From NCBI GenBank assembly GCA_000252485.1, contig JH610998.1:1-46006 (forward strand): a DNA stretch of 46,006 nucleotides, written 5' to 3'. The notes beneath the pieces were generated by a model. The model was not told the DNA's origin and did not search any database. It saw only the letters and a program-made list of their open reading frames with translations. Positions 26,879 through 45,926 of this stretch are shown here, one piece after another. Position 1 is the stretch's first letter, and the number at the start of each line of letters is the position of its first letter. The translations under genes and the position numbers were made by a program. The DNA comes from Prochloron didemni P4-Papua_New_Guinea. Lineage in GTDB: Bacteria > Cyanobacteriota > Cyanobacteriia > Cyanobacteriales > Prochloraceae.

Positions 26879-27370
26879 ATGAGCTATTGTTTCAATCCCA
26901 ACTGTCTTTACCAGAACCCTGACGGGAGCAACTTTTGTCAGCGCTGCGGATCTCAATTACTCCTAACAGAACGTTACCGCGCTGTGGAGTTGATTGGGCA
27001 AGGTGGTTTCGGTCGAACTTTTAAGGCGATCGACCAAAATAGGCTCAACACCACCTGCGTCATCAAGCAGTTTTTGCCTTTACCACAAGGTAGCCAAGCA
27101 CTCCAGAAGGCAACAGAAATGTTTCAACAAGAAGCAGTTCTTTTGAGAGATTTGGGGAAGCATGCTCAAATTCCAGATTTGTTAGCCTTTTTTGAAGAGG
27201 AAGGACGACTTTATCTGATTCAAGAATTTGTTGATGGTCAAGATTTGCGCAAGGAACTGACTCTCAGGGGAATATTCTCGGAAGAACAAGTGCGACAAGT
27301 GCTGAAGAGTTTGCTGCCAGTACTTCTCAAATTTGTGTTTACCCAAAGTTTTAAAAAATATGTCGGCTAA
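26879..27370 (+). pseudogene. Ser/Thr protein kinase, 5' fragment
   Basis: From ATG 26879: a zinc-ribbon-like N-terminus CFNPNCLYQNPDGSNFCQRC (4-23), then a Hanks-type kinase N-lobe with glycine loop IGQGGFGRTFKA, catalytic lysine in TCVIKQFLP and hinge LYLIQEFVDGQDLRKEL. Homology ends at KSLLPVL (about 27330), just where the H-R-D catalytic loop should follow; the last 14 residues are read through into the next locus. Without the C-lobe it cannot be an active kinase. The break coincides with the start of xisH-xisI. Confidence 0.75.
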
Positions 27371-27776
27371 AGATCGTTTTCACGAAGCTGTTAAAATAGG
27401 ACTAATTAAAGATGGATGGACTATAACTCACGATCCCCTATCCCTGGATTTTGATAATACTCGAGTTCAAATAGATTTAGCGGGAGAAAAACTGATTGCC
27501 GCAGAGCTAGGATCTGAAAAAATTGCTGTTGAGGTGAAGAGTTTTCTCGCTGCTTCTACCATTTATGAATTTCATTTAGCAGTTGGGCAATGTTTTAGCT
27601 ATAGAATTGCATTGCGAGCGCAAGAAGCAGAACGTAAATTATATCTAGCAGTACCTATTTATATCTACGATAATTTTTTTCGTCGCCCGTTCGCACAACA
27701 AACCATTGAAGAATCGCAAATGAATATATTAGTCTACGATCCTAATGAGGAGGTTATATTGCAGTGGATAAGTTAA
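27360..27776 (+). CDS. xisH: XisH-family protein (PD-(D/E)xK-like)
   Basis: A 138-aa protein from ATG 27360, giving the family start MSAKDRFHEAVKIGLIKDGW. QIDLAGEKLIAAELGSEKIA and VEVKSFL fit a D...E-x-K nuclease-like core. XisH was first described as a factor controlling excision of the Anabaena fdxN element together with XisI; the pair is common in cyanobacteria far from any excision element. Its last codons overlap xisI by 13 nt. The start lies inside the truncated kinase frame. Confidence 0.9.
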   Translation: MSAKDRFHEAVKIGLIKDGWTITHDPLSLDFDNTRVQIDLAGEKLIAAELGSEKIAVEVKSFLAASTIYEFHLAVGQCFSYRIALRAQEAERKLYLAVPIYIYDNFFRRPFAQQTIEESQMNILVYDPNEEVILQWIS

Positions 27777-28096
27777 CTCAATATCGTTGTTGGATTAAGG
27801 AAATCTTGGAAAAGCACAGTCTAGTTAAGCCAGCGGGAAATATAGAAGTTTATAAATTCTTCGATCCTCAGCAAGATCATTATCAAGTTTTTCATGCCGG
27901 ATGGAATAAATATCACCGTATTTTTGGCCCTCTGATTCACATTGATATTATTGACAGTAAAGTGGTAATTCAGTATGATGGAACGGAGGTTGGCGTTGCT
28001 AATGAGTTAGTAGAATTGGGAATACCGAAGCAGGATATTGTCTTAGGGTATCATGCCCCATTTATGCGTCAATATGATGGATTTGGTGTGGGATGA
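27764..28096 (+). CDS. xisI: XisI-family protein
   Basis: A 110-aa protein from GTG 27764, overlapping the end of xisH. MDKLTQYRCWIKEILEKHSL, YQVFHAGWNKYHRIFGPLIH, then IQYDGTEVGVANELVELGIP and KQDIVLGYHAPFMRQYDGFG is the full-length XisI signature. It is the partner of XisH; the overlapping pair looks like a two-component module, possibly toxin-antitoxin-like, but that role is not established. Confidence 0.92.
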   Translation: MDKLTQYRCWIKEILEKHSLVKPAGNIEVYKFFDPQQDHYQVFHAGWNKYHRIFGPLIHIDIIDSKVVIQYDGTEVGVANELVELGIPKQDIVLGYHAPFMRQYDGFGVG

Positions 28097-34680: not shown

Positions 34681-35077
34681 CATAGAACATTGTATCTTCT
34701 ATTTCTTGGCGAACCTCACGACTTACATAGCAATCTTTATTCAGACACTCAAGTAATAATAGATTAGCATTATAATAATGTGGTCCAAGCTAAAAGAGAA
34801 CCATTTTTCAGCAAAAGTTAGATTGTCTATACGTTTGCACCAGGAAATCATACAGTTTGTGAGATTTACCTGGTCCTTTTCCCTCAATCCCAAACTTTTT
34901 ATACACTCCTGTCATGTGAGTGCGGAAAGCAGTATGAGAGATATTTAGATCTGCTGCAAGTAACTGTTCGCTCTGATTAATAAAACTAAAGCGTTGAATA
35001 AAAACATCTGTTTGTTTTTCTGAAAGGTGGTACTCAGCAGCTATGTCAGCCAAAAATTGTTGGGGAAGAGGTTCCAT
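34681..35077 (-). pseudogene. Relic NACHT ATPase: HTH domain kept, core deleted
   Basis: Minus strand. From ATG 35077 an 89-aa frame (MEPLPQQFLADIAAEYHLSE... to YRQSNFC) aligns with the first 88 residues of the NACHT protein at 43266-45641 (MEPFPQDFLGNVATEYHLSE... to YKQSNF). After its stop, 34681-34780 reads in another frame HYYNANLLLLECLNKDCYVS, then REVRQEIEDT, matching the far C-terminus of the same protein (QYYNANMLLVDCLNKDCYVS). About 660 internal codons have been lost. The N-terminal domain frame is clean, so it may still be made as a free DNA-binding protein. Confidence 0.8.
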
Positions 35078-35192
35078 GGGGTAATCGGTAGTAAATGGCT
35101 AGCGGGTCGTTGGGTGAGATGGAAAGATCGGCTTCAAGTCAGCTGAAAACCTTGTCTCATCTACGTTTCTTGATGTTTGACGGATAATCGTC

Positions 35193-35229
35193 ATGTTAGT
35201 TCATGTCAGCACATGTCAGTATATGTTAG
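35193..35229. promoter_or_regulatory. Four ATGTYAG repeats, 10-bp period (candidate operator)
   Basis: ATGTTAG 35193-35199, ATGTCAG 35203-35209, ATGTCAG 35213-35219 and ATGTTAG 35223-35229, exactly one helical turn apart; a weaker ATGTTTG is at 35173, again in phase. It lies between the relic NACHT gene (start 35077) and the ribbon-helix-helix gene at 35410. The same array, in the same orientation, is at 45683-45719 upstream of the intact NACHT gene. Confidence 0.65.
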
Positions 35230-35409: not shown

Positions 35410-35592
35410 ATGAAAACAGATCTTGTAGAGGTGAATATGCCTAAAGATATCCTTAGAGGTTTGCAATGGCTGGCAGAAAAACAAGGAATCACTGCTACTG
35501 AGGCTTTAAAGAAAGCCATATCCAATGAAACCTATCTCTTGGAGGAATTAGAAAAGAAAAAAACAATTACAATCAAAGTGAAGAGAAAATGA
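35410..35592 (+). CDS. Small ribbon-helix-helix-like protein (RHH-1)
   Basis: A 60-aa protein from ATG 35410, with AAGGAG eight bases upstream. DLVEVNMPKDILRGLQWLAE followed by KQGITATEALKKAISNETYL has the beta-helix-helix pattern of CopG/Arc proteins: V-x-V-N-M-P strand, amphipathic helix, G-x-T-A-T-E-A-L second helix. Paralogues are at 36157 and 36368. It is followed by a 59-nt hairpin and a membrane-protein gene, and this arrangement is duplicated downstream. A TTTGAG/CTCAAA inverted pair at 35347-35365 precedes it. Likely a DNA-binding repressor of the cassette. Confidence 0.65.
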   Translation: MKTDLVEVNMPKDILRGLQWLAEKQGITATEALKKAISNETYLLEELEKKKTITIKVKRK

Positions 35593-35604
35593 AGTTATCC
35601 TTAT

Positions 35605-35663
35605 AGCAATCCTCTTTGAATTATTGTTAGCTAAGTTTTTTAAGCTAATTAGCTAGGATTGCT
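35605..35663 (+). promoter_or_regulatory. Conserved 59-nt stem-loop between RHH and membrane genes (copy 1)
   Basis: The ends AGCAATCCT (35605-35613) and AGGATTGCT (35655-35663) pair perfectly, with an inner TTAGCT...AGCTAA stem. The same 59-nt structure occurs at 36571-36629 at the equivalent place in the second cassette. It may be an attenuator, operator or partial terminator separating the two genes. Confidence 0.6.
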
Positions 35664-35684
35664 GGATATCTCACTTAGTTGAAG

Positions 35685-36092
35685 ATGGAAATAAATTTGA
35701 TGACAGATGAAACTTCCGAACAAAACTTAGATCGAAAAGCTAAAGAAGAATCTGGTTTTGCACAACCATTTAAAGAAAAAGAAGAAGGTATTAAAGAAGA
35801 AAAAATTAAGTATGACTATTTACTAGTAGAACAAGAACAAACAAGATCTACCCTGGCCATAGCCCTCTTAATATGCTTTGGCGTGACTATTTTGTTAATT
35901 TTTGTGATGATTGGGTACTATCAGCATCGTATTATAGATATTATTAAAGATTCAACGAATAAAGAGCTTAATTTTACTAGCCTAGAAAAGTCTTTTGAGC
36001 TATCTAAAGAAATAATTACCATTGTTTGGACTTCACAAGCAGCTTTATTAGGGAGCGCTTTGGGATTTTATTTTGGCAACCGCAATAATTAA
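35685..36092 (+). CDS. Two-helix membrane protein of the RHH cassette (copy 1)
   Basis: A 135-aa protein from ATG 35685 (ATG 35700 is also possible). Charged N-terminus to about 45, hydrophobic helix about 51-72 (TLAIALLICFGVTILLIFVM), a loop, then a conserved SFELSKEIITIVWTSQAALL followed by GSALGFYFGNRNN at the C-terminus, which is a second helix. The C-terminal 40 residues are nearly identical in the paralogue at 36651, while the N-terminus and loop diverge. I do not recognise the family. A small membrane protein next to an RHH regulator and a STAND relic fits an effector or anchor role, which is inference. Confidence 0.6.
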   Translation: MEINLMTDETSEQNLDRKAKEESGFAQPFKEKEEGIKEEKIKYDYLLVEQEQTRSTLAIALLICFGVTILLIFVMIGYYQHRIIDIIKDSTNKELNFTSLEKSFELSKEIITIVWTSQAALLGSALGFYFGNRNN

Positions 36093-36118
36093 TTAGAAAT
36101 TTACTAACAAAATGCGAC

Positions 36119-36124
36119 TATAAT
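36119..36124 (+). promoter_or_regulatory. Possible -10 box before the second cassette
   Basis: TATAAT 33 bp upstream of ATG 36157. No good -35 is seen at 16-18 bp distance. Confidence 0.3.
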
Positions 36125-36156
36125 GGAGATACAACTAAACTATTAAGGAGTTAGCA

Positions 36157-36357
36157 ATGGGGGAGAAAGAACTAGAATCAGTCCCTGTAAACATGCCCAA
36201 AGATATTCTCAGAGGTTTGCAATGGCTTGCAGAGCAAGAAGGAACAACTGCCACCGAAGCTTTACGAGATGCCATCGCTACTCAAACCTATCTGATCAAG
36301 GAATTCAGAAAAAAAGAAATAATTACCATCAGAAAGAAAAATAAAGTTGTATATTAA
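36157..36357 (+). CDS. Small ribbon-helix-helix-like protein (RHH-2)
   Basis: A 66-aa paralogue of RHH-1: ESVPVNMPKDILRGLQWLAE then QEGTTATEALRDAIATQTYL. AAGGAG lies 13 bases upstream of ATG 36157. The following gene repeats the same leader and first 30 codons almost exactly (offset 211 bp), so this is a recent tandem duplication. The C-terminal tail (IKEFRKKEIITIRKKNKVVY) differs. Confidence 0.65.
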   Translation: MGEKELESVPVNMPKDILRGLQWLAEQEGTTATEALRDAIATQTYLIKEFRKKEIITIRKKNKVVY

Positions 36358-36367
36358 GGAGTTAGCA

Positions 36368-36547
36368 ATGGGTGAGAAAGAACTAGAATCAGTCCCTGTA
36401 AACATGCCCAAAGATATTCTCAGAGGTTTGCAATGGCTTGCAGAAAAACAAGGAATAACTGCTACTGAGGCTTTAGCAAAAGCCATATCCAATCAAAGCT
36501 ATATCTTGGAGGAATTAGAAAAGAAAAAACAATTACAATCAAAATGA
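36368..36547 (+). CDS. Small ribbon-helix-helix-like protein (RHH-3)
   Basis: A 59-aa paralogue from ATG 36368, with AAGGAG at 36356-36361 overlapping the end of RHH-2. Residues 1-29 equal RHH-2 (GEKELESVPVNMPKDILRGL), but residues 30-55 (QGITATEALAKAISNQSYIL) are closer to RHH-1, so it is a mosaic of the two. The next feature is the second 59-nt stem-loop and the second membrane protein. Confidence 0.65.
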   Translation: MGEKELESVPVNMPKDILRGLQWLAEKQGITATEALAKAISNQSYILEELEKKKQLQSK

Positions 36548-36570
36548 AGAAAAAGTGAAGTTCCTATTAT

Positions 36571-36629
36571 AGCAATCCTCTTTGAATGATTGTTAGCTAA
36601 ATTGTTGTAGCTAATCAGCTAGGATTGCT
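36571..36629 (+). promoter_or_regulatory. Conserved 59-nt stem-loop (copy 2)
   Basis: AGCAATCCT (36571-36579) and AGGATTGCT (36621-36629), same length and inner TTAGCT/AGCTAA stem as copy 1. Confidence 0.6.
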
Positions 36630-36650
36630 GGATATCTCACTTAATTGAAG

Positions 36651-37007
36651 ATGGAAATAAATGTGATGACAGATGAACCTTTAACACCAAACTCAGGACA
36701 AAATATAGATAGAGTAGCAGAAGAATCTGGTTCGGAAGAGTTACAAAACATTAGTGTTATAGAAACAATAGAATACAAGCAAGAGGAAACAAGAGCTTTA
36801 CTAGCTAAAAGACTGGTAGGAATCTTTTTTTGGACTATTATTTTGACTTTTAGTTTCATAGTAATAGACCAAGTGCTGATTGTGGTTTTTCACGATACTT
36901 TACAAAAATCTTTCGAGCTATCTAAAGAAATAATTACGATTATTTGGACTTCTGAAGCAGCTTTGCTAGGTAGCGCTTTGGGGTTTTACTTCAGCAATCG
37001 CAGTTAA
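36651..37007 (+). CDS. Two-helix membrane protein of the RHH cassette (copy 2)
   Basis: A 118-aa paralogue of 35685-36092 from ATG 36651. It begins with the same MEIN(L/V)MTDE start, then a diverged acidic region, a hydrophobic helix about 57-80 (FFWTIILTFSFIVIDQVLIV), a shorter loop, and the nearly identical LQKSFELSKEIITIIWTSEA, then ALLGSALGFYFSNRS. The strong conservation of the C-terminal helix against a variable N-terminus suggests that the last helix carries the common function and the N-terminus the specificity. Confidence 0.6.
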   Translation: MEINVMTDEPLTPNSGQNIDRVAEESGSEELQNISVIETIEYKQEETRALLAKRLVGIFFWTIILTFSFIVIDQVLIVVFHDTLQKSFELSKEIITIIWTSEAALLGSALGFYFSNRS

Positions 37008-43265: not shown

Positions 43266-45641
43266 TTAGGATTTTGATTTTCTTTTCTCTATTTCAGCTA
43301 TAGGTAACAAGATGGTATCTTCTATTTCCTCACGAACTTGACGACTCACATAGCAATCTTTATTTAGACAATCAACTAATAACATGTTAGCATTATAATA
43401 CTGCCAAAGCAATTCTTGTTGTTGGTCGTTGAATTGCCAATCATGACCAATATTGCGATATTTAATCATTCCCATTCTTAATTCCTCGAGCCAAGTTTTC
43501 CCATTTAATTGCCACCATTCTGTAAATTTAGATAATTCCTCATCTAATTCATCTAATTCATCTAATTCAGGTAATTTCTCGTTGAGATGTTTTAACCATT
43601 GCTTTTGGCCATGGTCTAAATTATTCTCTAGCAAAGAGTTATTAAACATCTTGAAATCTATAATTGGACTAAAATCATTTATTGATAAAAAACTAAGCCA
43701 ACAATAAAAAATAAAGTTTATATCAATTTCAGACTTGTAATTGATATTCTTAGTTATTTTGCTCCACCCTTTTACAGTATATGATTGGCTTATAATTTCC
43801 CCATCACTAAAAGACATTCCTACTCCAATAGGCTCAAGTTGATTGGGAACAGATAAGAAAGACAATTGTAATATTTTTTCTTTAATTGTCAAACCAAAAT
43901 AACAATTTTTCATACACCATGTCAAAAACTCTTGTAACTTATCATCTTTAGCTATAATTGGCTCGATTTTCTCTTTCATCAACTTAAAGAAAAAATCTGC
44001 ACTATCCAACATCTCAACTACAAGAAAAAACACTTCTCTCCACCTTGTCTCCGTCAAACGACTCACCAAACTTCTTAAACCCTGTTCCAACTTCTGCGGT
44101 TCAGAAATACTCGCAATCTTTCTCGCAGCAAAATACTCTTGAAAAGTCAAATGAGAAAAAGAATAAATCCCCTTAGCTCTTTCCACCAACAATCCATGTT
44201 GGGACTCAATAGATTTCAAAATTGCCTCGCTATCCAATTGTAAAGCTTCTGGGTCAGTTTTCCCATCCGGTAAATTATAGATATAATCCCCAATATAACG
44301 CTCTACTCGCCTTTGTTTAAAGAAATAATCCCCAGCTTCAAAAGTAGTCCAAGCTATTTGACTGAGTAAATCTTCCTTGCGCTTTAAAGATAATCTCTGA
44401 TAAACTAGGTCTCGCTCTATATTTCTTTTTCCATCCCATTTTTTCAACAACACATCAATCCCTTCCTTATACAACTCGGAACGATTTTGAGGAAAATTGG
44501 CTGTTTCCCCAAACACCAAACACAACAAGGTCAATAACAGAGGATTGCTAGCTAACTCTAGAATGGGTTTATTTTCCTCTTGTTTCAACTTCTTAAGAAA
44601 AAGCTCCCCTTTTTTCTCATCTTGCAACTGAAACCATTTATTAGCAAAGGTCTCAACCTGTTGCTTATCAAAATCCGCAACTTCCACTTCAGTAAATCCT
44701 TCAAAGGTATACTCTTTAGCTGCAATGCGACAAGTAATGACAAAACAGTTGTTAGAATAAAAATCCGCTAAACTCTGAATTTGCTGAATGACTCCATGAC
44801 TGTCCTTTTGTCTTACTTCATCCAAACCATCCAGTAAAATTAATAGTCTTCCTCCTGCCAAGAGACTAGTTATTTCTGTCTCAGAGACTTGATAATGAGT
44901 TAAGAACTGCTGGATGAAAGTGAGTAAATTGGGTTGATGCTCAATTTCGGCAAAATCCTTGAGAGGAATAAAAATTGGTACTCTGTTTTCTGGGAACTTT
45001 CCCCCAATAGATTCCATGGCTAAATACTTCAAAAAAGTGGTCTTGCCCGAACCCGGTTTCCCCCAAATCATCAACTTAGAATATTGTTTTACTACTTCTA
45101 AACCCGGGACTCGCTGCTCGGCAATGCCAAACAGTCCGCAACGGTCCAAGTTTTTTTCCTGATTTAAACTTTCTTGTAATTGAGCTAATTCCAAGCGCCT
45201 GGTTGCCGTAATCTTTTCTAAGATGTTGACGTTGGTGTAAATTTCTCCCAGTTTAATAGCCTGTGTCATATCCAGCACTCGCATGGTTCCGCAACGCTGT
45301 TTAATGTCCTCGCCTACTTTATCTCTCACTTCTTGCACTAGGACATCAAGATTTTTATCTTCATCTTCATTAACAGGAAAGTTAGATTGTTTATACTTCT
45401 TCCAGAGAAAATCGTGCAGTTTGCGGGATTTATTCGGTCCCTTGCCCCCAATACTGAATTTCTTATATACTCCGCTCATGCGAGTGCGGAAAGCATTAGG
45501 AGTGATATGAAGTGTTTCTGCAACTGTTGCTTGGCTTTGATCCGGATTACTATAGCGTTCTAGAAAAGCTTCTCTTTGTTCTTCTGAAAGGTGGTACTCA
45601 GTCGCTACGTTACCGAGAAAATCTTGAGGAAAGGGTTCCAT
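43266..45641 (-). CDS. NACHT-domain STAND ATPase with N-terminal HTH-like domain
   Basis: A 791-aa protein. Residues 1-90 (EYHLSEEQREAFLERYSNPD, then QSQATVAETLHITPNAFRTR, MSGVYKKFSIGGKGPNKSRK) form a helix-turn-helix-like domain. The NACHT core has Walker A LMIWGKPGSGKTTFLKYLAM (194-202 core), Walker B LLILLDGLDEV (266-276), a sensor FVITCRIAAKEY and the LPLLLTLLCLVF-like SNPLLLTLLCLVFGE helix. The C-terminal half is helical without obvious LRR, TPR or WD40 repeats; SHLTFQEYFAARKI is the usual end of NACHT-associated helices. An acidic DELDELDELDEELSK run is near the end. NACHT proteins are ATP-dependent switches, many of them antiphage in bacteria. Confidence 0.85.
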   Translation of the reverse strand: MEPFPQDFLGNVATEYHLSEEQREAFLERYSNPDQSQATVAETLHITPNAFRTRMSGVYKKFSIGGKGPNKSRKLHDFLWKKYKQSNFPVNEDEDKNLDVLVQEVRDKVGEDIKQRCGTMRVLDMTQAIKLGEIYTNVNILEKITATRRLELAQLQESLNQEKNLDRCGLFGIAEQRVPGLEVVKQYSKLMIWGKPGSGKTTFLKYLAMESIGGKFPENRVPIFIPLKDFAEIEHQPNLLTFIQQFLTHYQVSETEITSLLAGGRLLILLDGLDEVRQKDSHGVIQQIQSLADFYSNNCFVITCRIAAKEYTFEGFTEVEVADFDKQQVETFANKWFQLQDEKKGELFLKKLKQEENKPILELASNPLLLTLLCLVFGETANFPQNRSELYKEGIDVLLKKWDGKRNIERDLVYQRLSLKRKEDLLSQIAWTTFEAGDYFFKQRRVERYIGDYIYNLPDGKTDPEALQLDSEAILKSIESQHGLLVERAKGIYSFSHLTFQEYFAARKIASISEPQKLEQGLRSLVSRLTETRWREVFFLVVEMLDSADFFFKLMKEKIEPIIAKDDKLQEFLTWCMKNCYFGLTIKEKILQLSFLSVPNQLEPIGVGMSFSDGEIISQSYTVKGWSKITKNINYKSEIDINFIFYCWLSFLSINDFSPIIDFKMFNNSLLENNLDHGQKQWLKHLNEKLPELDELDELDEELSKFTEWWQLNGKTWLEELRMGMIKYRNIGHDWQFNDQQQELLWQYYNANMLLVDCLNKDCYVSRQVREEIEDTILLPIAEIEKRKSKS

Positions 45642-45682: not shown

Positions 45683-45719
45683 ATGTTAGTCTATGTTAGT
45701 CTATGTTAGCCTATATTTG
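45683..45719. promoter_or_regulatory. Four ATGTTAG-type repeats, 10-bp period (candidate operator)
   Basis: ATGTTAG at 45683, 45693 and 45703 and a weaker ATATTTG at 45713, each one helical turn apart. It lies 42 bp upstream of the NACHT start (45641) and 61 bp upstream of the divergent small gene (45780), so it can control both. Same motif, period and orientation as 35193-35229 at the relic NACHT locus. Confidence 0.7.
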
Positions 45720-45779
45720 AGAGTTTTCGCGCCCATCTCCTTGTCACACTAAATATAGTTGAGCGAAAAGGAGGCGCTG

Positions 45780-45926
45780 ATGGAGGATATATTGATTCTC
45801 ATCAGAAATACTTTCATTAGTTGGTTAGTTGTGTTTGTGTTAAATTGGATTGTAGAGAAAATAAAGAACTATCTCAAAAAGATTCGCTCTGGGGTGCCCC
45901 CTTCCGAAAGTCCGGAAACACAATAG
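45780..45926 (+). CDS. 48-aa single-helix membrane protein, divergent from NACHT
   Basis: A short gene from ATG 45780 with a strong AAGGAGG site (45768-45774) six bases upstream. Sequence features: MEDILILIRNTFISW, a hydrophobic helix about 12-26 (FISWLVVFVLNWIV), a basic EKIKNYLKKIRS and a polar tail PPSESPETQ. It is divergently oriented from the NACHT gene with the 10-bp repeat array between them. The good ribosome-binding site and membrane-helix-plus-basic layout support a real gene. A partner or effector role is inferred only from position. Confidence 0.6.
   Translation: MEDILILIRNTFISWLVVFVLNWIVEKIKNYLKKIRSGVPPSESPETQ

Follow-up and report, generated by a model that had tools for sequence, protein, structure and literature searches.

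Results

Two HTH-NACHT Loci in the Window

The window, a stretch of 46,006 nucleotides from Prochloron didemni P4-Papua_New_Guinea (contig JH610998.1), holds an intact and a truncated locus of a protein that combines an N-terminal HTH domain with a NACHT ATPase, and each locus has an array of ATGTYAG-type units (Table 1). At the intact locus the array lies between two divergent genes, a position overlooked in the earlier note. The gene facing the NACHT gene is a short ORF; an SD-like aaggagg sits just 5' of its ATG at 45780, and its transcription is predicted to start near 45757.

Table 1. Coordinates of the features at the truncated and the intact locus
Feature	Positions	Strand	Description
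Remnant of the NACHT protein C-terminus	34688..34780	-	Residues 747-777, 77% identical; residues 89-746 missing before it
Relic gene	34811..35077	-	Intact 89-aa ORF with the N-terminal HTH; identity to the intact copy 58%
Isolated in-phase ATGTTTG	35173..35179	+	Probably chance; relatives have their degenerate unit at the opposite, promoter-proximal end
Four-unit array ATGTYAG, period 10	35193..35229	+	Operator of the truncated locus, decayed; the match to profile R1 covers array positions 1-41 only, with no promoter
First divergent ORF past the relic array	35410..35592	+	60 aa, weakly similar to RHH_1; 180 bp from the array, conserved promoter spacing absent
HTH-NACHT-NCH2 protein	43266..45641	-	791 aa; HTH about 1-89, NACHT 191-338, NCH2 683-780
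Intact operator	45683..45719	+	ATGTTAG x3 and degenerate ATATTTG, period 10
Spacer, last unit to promoter box	45720..45740	+	21 nt, length conserved
TTGTCACACT, extended -10-like element of the divergent gene	45741..45750	+	Putative promoter; TG at 45742-45743, hexamer CACACT at 45745-45750
Divergent ORF	45780..45926	+	48 aa, one predicted membrane helix (MEDILILIRNTFISWLVVFVLNW...); putative effector

The array units begin exactly where the earlier note had placed them: ATGTTAG, ATGTCAG, ATGTCAG, and ATGTTAG at 35193, 35203, 35213, and 35223 in the truncated locus, and ATGTTAG at 45683, 45693, and 45703 followed by ATATTTG at 45713 in the intact one. The ATGTTTG proposed as a further unit does occur at 35173, but it stands alone, 20 bp separate it from the array, and it lies on the side opposite to that of the degenerate, promoter-proximal unit in relatives; it therefore probably arose by chance. 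Five two-unit arrays were seen in the window against 0.00 expected from 100 dinucleotide shuffles. In a scan of the whole genome (5,685,146 bases), as proposed in the earlier note, arrays of at least three units were found at these two loci only; the reversed-pattern control gave 0 matches, and the sole extra match on allowing three mismatches was an overlapping frame. The same two loci, and no others in the genome, encode the HTH domain (NACHT protein residues 1-89). The possibility that the array is frequent in this genome irrespective of the HTH domain is thus not borne out, and the view of the two window arrays as homologous elements tied to this domain is supported.

The protein encoded at the intact locus matches Pfam NACHT (63.7 bits, cut-off 26.7) and NCH2, a C-terminal helical domain (119.6 bits, cut-off 27); its Walker A (GKPGxGKTT) and Walker B (LLDGLDE) motifs are largely invariant among relatives. 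The Pfam GerE match for P0002 is below the cut-off, and the HTH profile A2 matches the GerE structure 1fse in the PDB with an E-value of 7.6e-5. The model of the HTH is all-helical (pLDDT 89.9), and the top Foldseek matches to it are sigma region 4, KorA, and GerE, with probabilities of about 0.95 or more and E-values that are not significant. An AlphaFold model of the whole protein was of low quality (pLDDT 59.8) and was left unused; the full-length protein had no match among PDB sequences, and no relative was found in a search of viral contigs. The main PADLOC match is PDC-S60, via the NTPase region. Since the HTH is N-terminal (residues about 1-89), the protein lacks the C-terminal LuxR HTH that marks MalT and the LAL proteins, and neither the OmpR-type winged HTH nor the BTA Pfam domain of SARP/AfsR was detected in P0001.

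The description of the other locus as a NACHT relic proved right. A tblastn comparison of the intact protein with the window aligned residues 1-88 with 35077-34814 and residues 747-777 with 34780-34688, and no match fell between these two segments; the HTH thus runs straight into the C-terminal segment, and the NACHT core has been deleted. What is left of this HTH-NACHT gene after the internal deletion includes an open HTH ORF of 89 aa. Pairwise dN/dS between the relic and intact HTH copies is about 0.36-0.46, a value compatible with a solo HTH either in use or out of use. At the conserved spacing from the relic array there is no promoter box, and the locus at 35193-35229 is a decayed second copy. 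The flanks of the two arrays differ, as the earlier note had stated, because the relic lost the downstream promoter element. Membership of the 35410..35592 ORF in the module is doubtful. This ORF belongs to a gene pair in tandem repeat (35410-37007, with DNA identity among copies of up to 90%) that comprises three copies of a 59-66 aa RHH-like protein (35410, 36157, 36368) and two copies of a two-TM protein (35700-36092, 36666-37007). A similar solo HTH ORF of 88 aa, at 2988-3251 of L176 (G282:C1:953000-959000), adjoins an array and a small membrane-protein ORF. Elsewhere in the window, at 26879-28096, a 163-aa ORF overlaps other genes; from the translations, we take the ORF to encode a truncated protein kinase and the overlapped genes to be XisH/XisI-like.

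Conservation of the Array and of Its Promoter Spacing

The HTH domain was found in 178 of 391 genomes in an order-wide search. When the regions upstream of 91 HTH loci were scanned for repeat lags, a period of 10 was detected in 26 loci versus none in shuffled sequences; the harmonic 20 appeared in seven loci, and the remaining lags in at most four. In most members the units, read in gene orientation, are CTRACAT or CTGACTT. About 40 intergenic regions can be aligned without gaps as units at 10-bp steps, 21 nt, TTGCGACAKT, about 40 nt, and a start codon, where TTGCGACAKT resembles an extended -10 box and would form a core promoter that looks weak and has no clear -35. If the hexamer spans -12 to -7, the unit centres fall near -71, -61, -51, and, for the last unit, -41, which would be a class-II activator position.

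Box and effector start are tightly spaced, mostly 39-42 nt apart, whereas the array lies anywhere from 44 to 167 nt from the HTH-NACHT gene. The earlier note assigned the array to the NACHT gene alone, an incomplete view: among relatives the array keeps a fixed distance to the divergent gene's promoter. Most loci with an array have an ORF that begins on its other side, whereas the HTH relatives with no array mostly lack such an ORF. Some HTH-NACHT loci, for example L013, L083, and L084, show no array. Effector starts in the alignment were chosen by hand, and the spacing was re-tested with profiles built from the other effector families only; in this leave-one-effector-family-out test a spacing of 21+10k nt was kept at 31 of 44 loci versus 3.4% in shuffles.

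A profile of units, spacer, and box (R1), trained on 18 loci with the window excluded, matched the intact window locus over its full length (E-value 9e-8) and the relic over the array only (3e-5). In the 391 genomes, 37 of the 38 best R1 matches adjoin HTH-NACHT genes; at the exception, G233:C277, the operator precedes a family-1 effector and no NACHT gene lies within the 6 kb examined. This locus (L173, G233:C277:30500-36500, at 2645-2978) could represent an orphan effector or one controlled in trans. Held-out genomes found by name (Cylindrospermum, Nostoc, Iningainema, Komarekiella, Dendronalium, Halomicronema) showed the layout next to the HTH in eight of eight cases. R1 was also run on 291 genomes of the class, with the promoter alone as a guide. 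Of nine places found outside the order, eight were examined, the ninth (G463) being a weaker match, and an HTH-NACHT gene was present across from all eight; a simple scan detected a small ORF at the expected distance in six of them.

The R1 and pattern searches yield essentially one operator per HTH-NACHT gene, which rules out a genome-wide regulon and points to control of the neighbour in cis. Weak R1 matches at L178-L180 were discarded as unrelated sequence with no HTH, NACHT, or effector matches. NB-ARC proteins of 450-540 aa with a related HTH (AVRKRL type) mostly have neither an array nor a conserved divergent ORF and were placed outside the module. Arrays of three to six CTGACAT units also occur in the genus g54 (L042, L044, L047, L128, L129), away from any HTH gene and with no promoter box; some of them lie at the ends of convergent genes and may be decoys or dead operators.

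Putative Effector Genes behind the Promoter

The largest effector family (family 1) comprises 22 loci encoding proteins of 44-86 aa with conserved hydrophobic and amphipathic segments; its codon-position differences (1156/561/1489) indicate that it is coding. At other loci the same place is taken by unrelated small membrane proteins, by a nuclease of the PLD family (Pfam PLDc_2; PADLOC MkoB/MkoC), or by a PD-(D/E)XK-like protein with weak Pfam and Cas4 matches. The putative effector of the intact window locus falls in none of the recurrent families. That genes without homology follow one conserved promoter is an argument for assigning the operator to the regulator and not to the effector. At four loci (L082, L086, L090, and L105) a short inverted repeat, CTCAGTcaagctACTGAG, is located 5' of the effector start, its 3' arm overlapping the GAGG ribosome-binding site; the repeat could fold into a hairpin and thereby limit translation.

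Joint Changes of the HTH Head and the Putative Operator

Effectors of family 1 also adjoin NACHT proteins with a different, XRE-like N-terminal HTH (LTQQQLADALGVTRQPISKFF...). R1 found no operator match at these XRE-headed loci, one of which (L226) keeps the XRE head but has no NACHT core in the ORF examined. Among nine divergent loci with XRE-like or related heads, three had a period of 11 bp and three of 22 bp at the threshold used, and no other lag within 8-25 was detected at these nine loci. The pattern resembles a natural head swap, in which core and effector stay and head and operator change together; the XRE loci are few, and this is nevertheless the best comparative evidence that the head reads the array.

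Further divergence is found among the LuxR-like heads. The array unit differs at L021 (GAGGGAGATA), and L071 and L113 have TATCTC-type repeats, the recognition helix being divergent in each; motif and helix diverge together at L021, L071, L113, and L070. A counter-example is L125, where a CTGACAT-type array is unchanged and the recognition helix is very different. One helix residue agrees with base 2 of the unit at 33 of 37 loci; this covariation, with just three independent pairs on supported branches, is lost after tree correction and is suggestive only. At L080, L116, L122, and L123 a related HTH (ACLKRMGQVYKKF; L116 is NB-ARC-like) is preceded by CCTCYGA-like motifs at about 10-bp steps, possibly another pair of head and operator. 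As the earlier note proposed, the HTH domain is the best candidate to bind the arrays, because the two co-occur across cyanobacteria, the operator changes with the XRE-like head, and the motif diverges with the recognition helix.

Discussion

We consider it likely, from comparative sequence evidence, that the array is a phased operator read by the HTH of the NACHT protein, which as a STAND switch would control the promoter of the divergent effector gene. The module is best read as a MalT- or AfsR-like logic built on an NLR-like core with swappable effectors. In the resting state the NACHT ATPase would be held inactive. A trigger, probably derived from a phage, would lead to ATP binding and oligomerisation of the NACHT protein; the LuxR/GerE-like HTH heads of adjacent subunits would then fill three to five sites that follow each other by one helical turn along the same face of the DNA, and from the last site, centred near -41, RNA polymerase would be recruited to the weak extended -10 promoter. 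The output would be the switching on of a small membrane protein or a nuclease. Multimerization of MalT results in cooperative binding to MalT boxes and polymerase recruitment (PMC4381067), and AfsR uses an N-terminal head to recognise a pair of 11-bp direct repeats at a promoter whose -35 is poor (PMC10936776). The NACHT oligomer, once activated, would likewise place its heads in a row on the array and turn on the effector promoter. The NACHT core, together with effectors that resemble defence nucleases, suggests a role of the module in defence. Several observations count against this reading as a whole: the array of L125 is unchanged beside a very different recognition helix, the agreement of a helix residue with unit base 2 is lost after tree correction, some HTH-NACHT loci have no array, the operator and effector at G233:C277 adjoin no HTH-NACHT gene, some g54 arrays lie away from any HTH gene, and the intact window effector stands outside the recurrent families.

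The HTH-NACHT protein might instead repress the divergent effector, and perhaps its own gene, until a trigger releases it, in the manner of a toxin-antitoxin system. A divergent layout with an operator between the genes is common for repressors, several of the effectors may be toxic, and solo HTH ORFs persist both at the window relic and at L176. However, the sites stop about 25 nt short of the -10-like hexamer on its upstream side and leave it free, the core promoter looks weak and has no clear -35, and MalT and AfsR, the STAND proteins with a DNA-binding domain that have been studied to date, are activators (PMC4381067, PMC10936776). Activation is therefore favoured by the position of the sites and the weakness of the core promoter, and we regard repression as unlikely.

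It is still less probable that another host factor, such as a global regulator, binds the array, and that HTH-NACHT genes share a promoter type merely by descent. The promoter block could indeed be inherited as a unit, and both the unchanged array of L125 and the array-only copies in g54 would fit such a factor, but the operator differs under an XRE-like head despite homologous NACHT and effector parts, the motifs diverge together with the helix at the four loci named above, and strong full-length matches sit at HTH-NACHT loci and not throughout the genomes. Least credible of all is a neutral short tandem repeat, of a kind abundant in cyanobacteria, or a plasmid-type iteron. Some CTGACTT arrays with no HTH are exact 10-bp minisatellites; the units of the module, in contrast, are degenerate yet in register, their spacing is fixed to the promoter box and the start codon, and they recur across families of the class, and no replication gene was found among the ORFs around either window array. 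For the intact type, the fixed promoter spacing and the held-out searches rule out such an origin.

Bacterial NLR-like proteins have been studied as sensors that kill or arrest the cell via effector domains on the same protein. The module described here suggests that a bacterial immune-type receptor may act by switching on a gene; if so, the output of the sensor is a gene switch, and the immune-type NACHT branch of the STAND ATPases is linked to the transcription-factor branch of MalT and AfsR. Chances seem about even that these loci represent a widespread class of cyanobacterial NLR-like receptors with transcription as output, in which an exchangeable head (LuxR-like with 10-bp arrays, XRE-like with 11-bp arrays) and an exchangeable divergent effector (membrane protein, PLD, or PD-(D/E)XK-like) are joined to a conserved NACHT-NCH2 core. 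Neither the operator nor control of a divergent effector by an HTH-NACHT protein was found described in the literature searched, a body that most subscription papers fall outside. The R1 profile locates such loci from DNA alone and predicts an effector gene at each, so that the hypothesis is directly testable; it also provides a route to small membrane effectors, which annotation tends to skip. The exchange of head for operator offers a natural experiment on how an array is read by a DNA-binding head.

Comparison with Known Systems

The conflict systems of multicellular prokaryotes likewise combine cyanobacterial STAND/NACHT NTPases with variable effectors (PMC7159879, PMC8195603). In these surveys (Kaur 2020, 2021) HTH domains are listed among possible non-enzymatic effector modules, and the ECF-like HTH of TRADD-N proteins is taken as a hint of a transcriptional response (PMC7159879, PMC8195603). 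In contrast to the module proposed here, no account was found there of operator arrays, of promoter spacing, or of an HTH-NACHT protein that controls a divergent effector, and a word search of PMC7159879 returned neither 'promoter' nor 'direct repeat'.

The bNACHT antiphage proteins share with our protein a NACHT NTPase followed by a C-terminal helical domain (Pfam NCH2). To our knowledge, the known members act via their own effector domains. The output proposed here, unlike theirs, is transcription of a separate gene.

In MalT of E. coli the HTH is C-terminal, maltotriose is sensed via a repeat domain, and metabolic operons are controlled, whereas the module described here has an N-terminal HTH and a NACHT-NCH2 core, and its putative target is a neighbouring variable effector gene. 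The two are alike in a STAND-class ATPase switch and, as we propose for the module, in a multimer that binds cooperatively to repeated boxes upstream of target promoters, and the HTH of the module resembles the LuxR-type HTH of MalT (PMC4381067).

The AfsR/SARP regulators of Streptomyces resemble the module in the N-terminal DNA-binding domain on a NOD protein, in direct repeats one helical turn apart (11 bp), and in a promoter with a poor -35 and a suboptimal -10 (PMC10936776). AfsR differs in its OmpR-type winged HTH, BTA, and TPR domains and in its role in antibiotic regulation; its repeats are two in number and overlap the -35, whereas those of the module are three to five and end near -38. 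Phased direct repeats at a fixed distance to the target promoter are a feature of STAND activators generally, and one that the loci described here also show.
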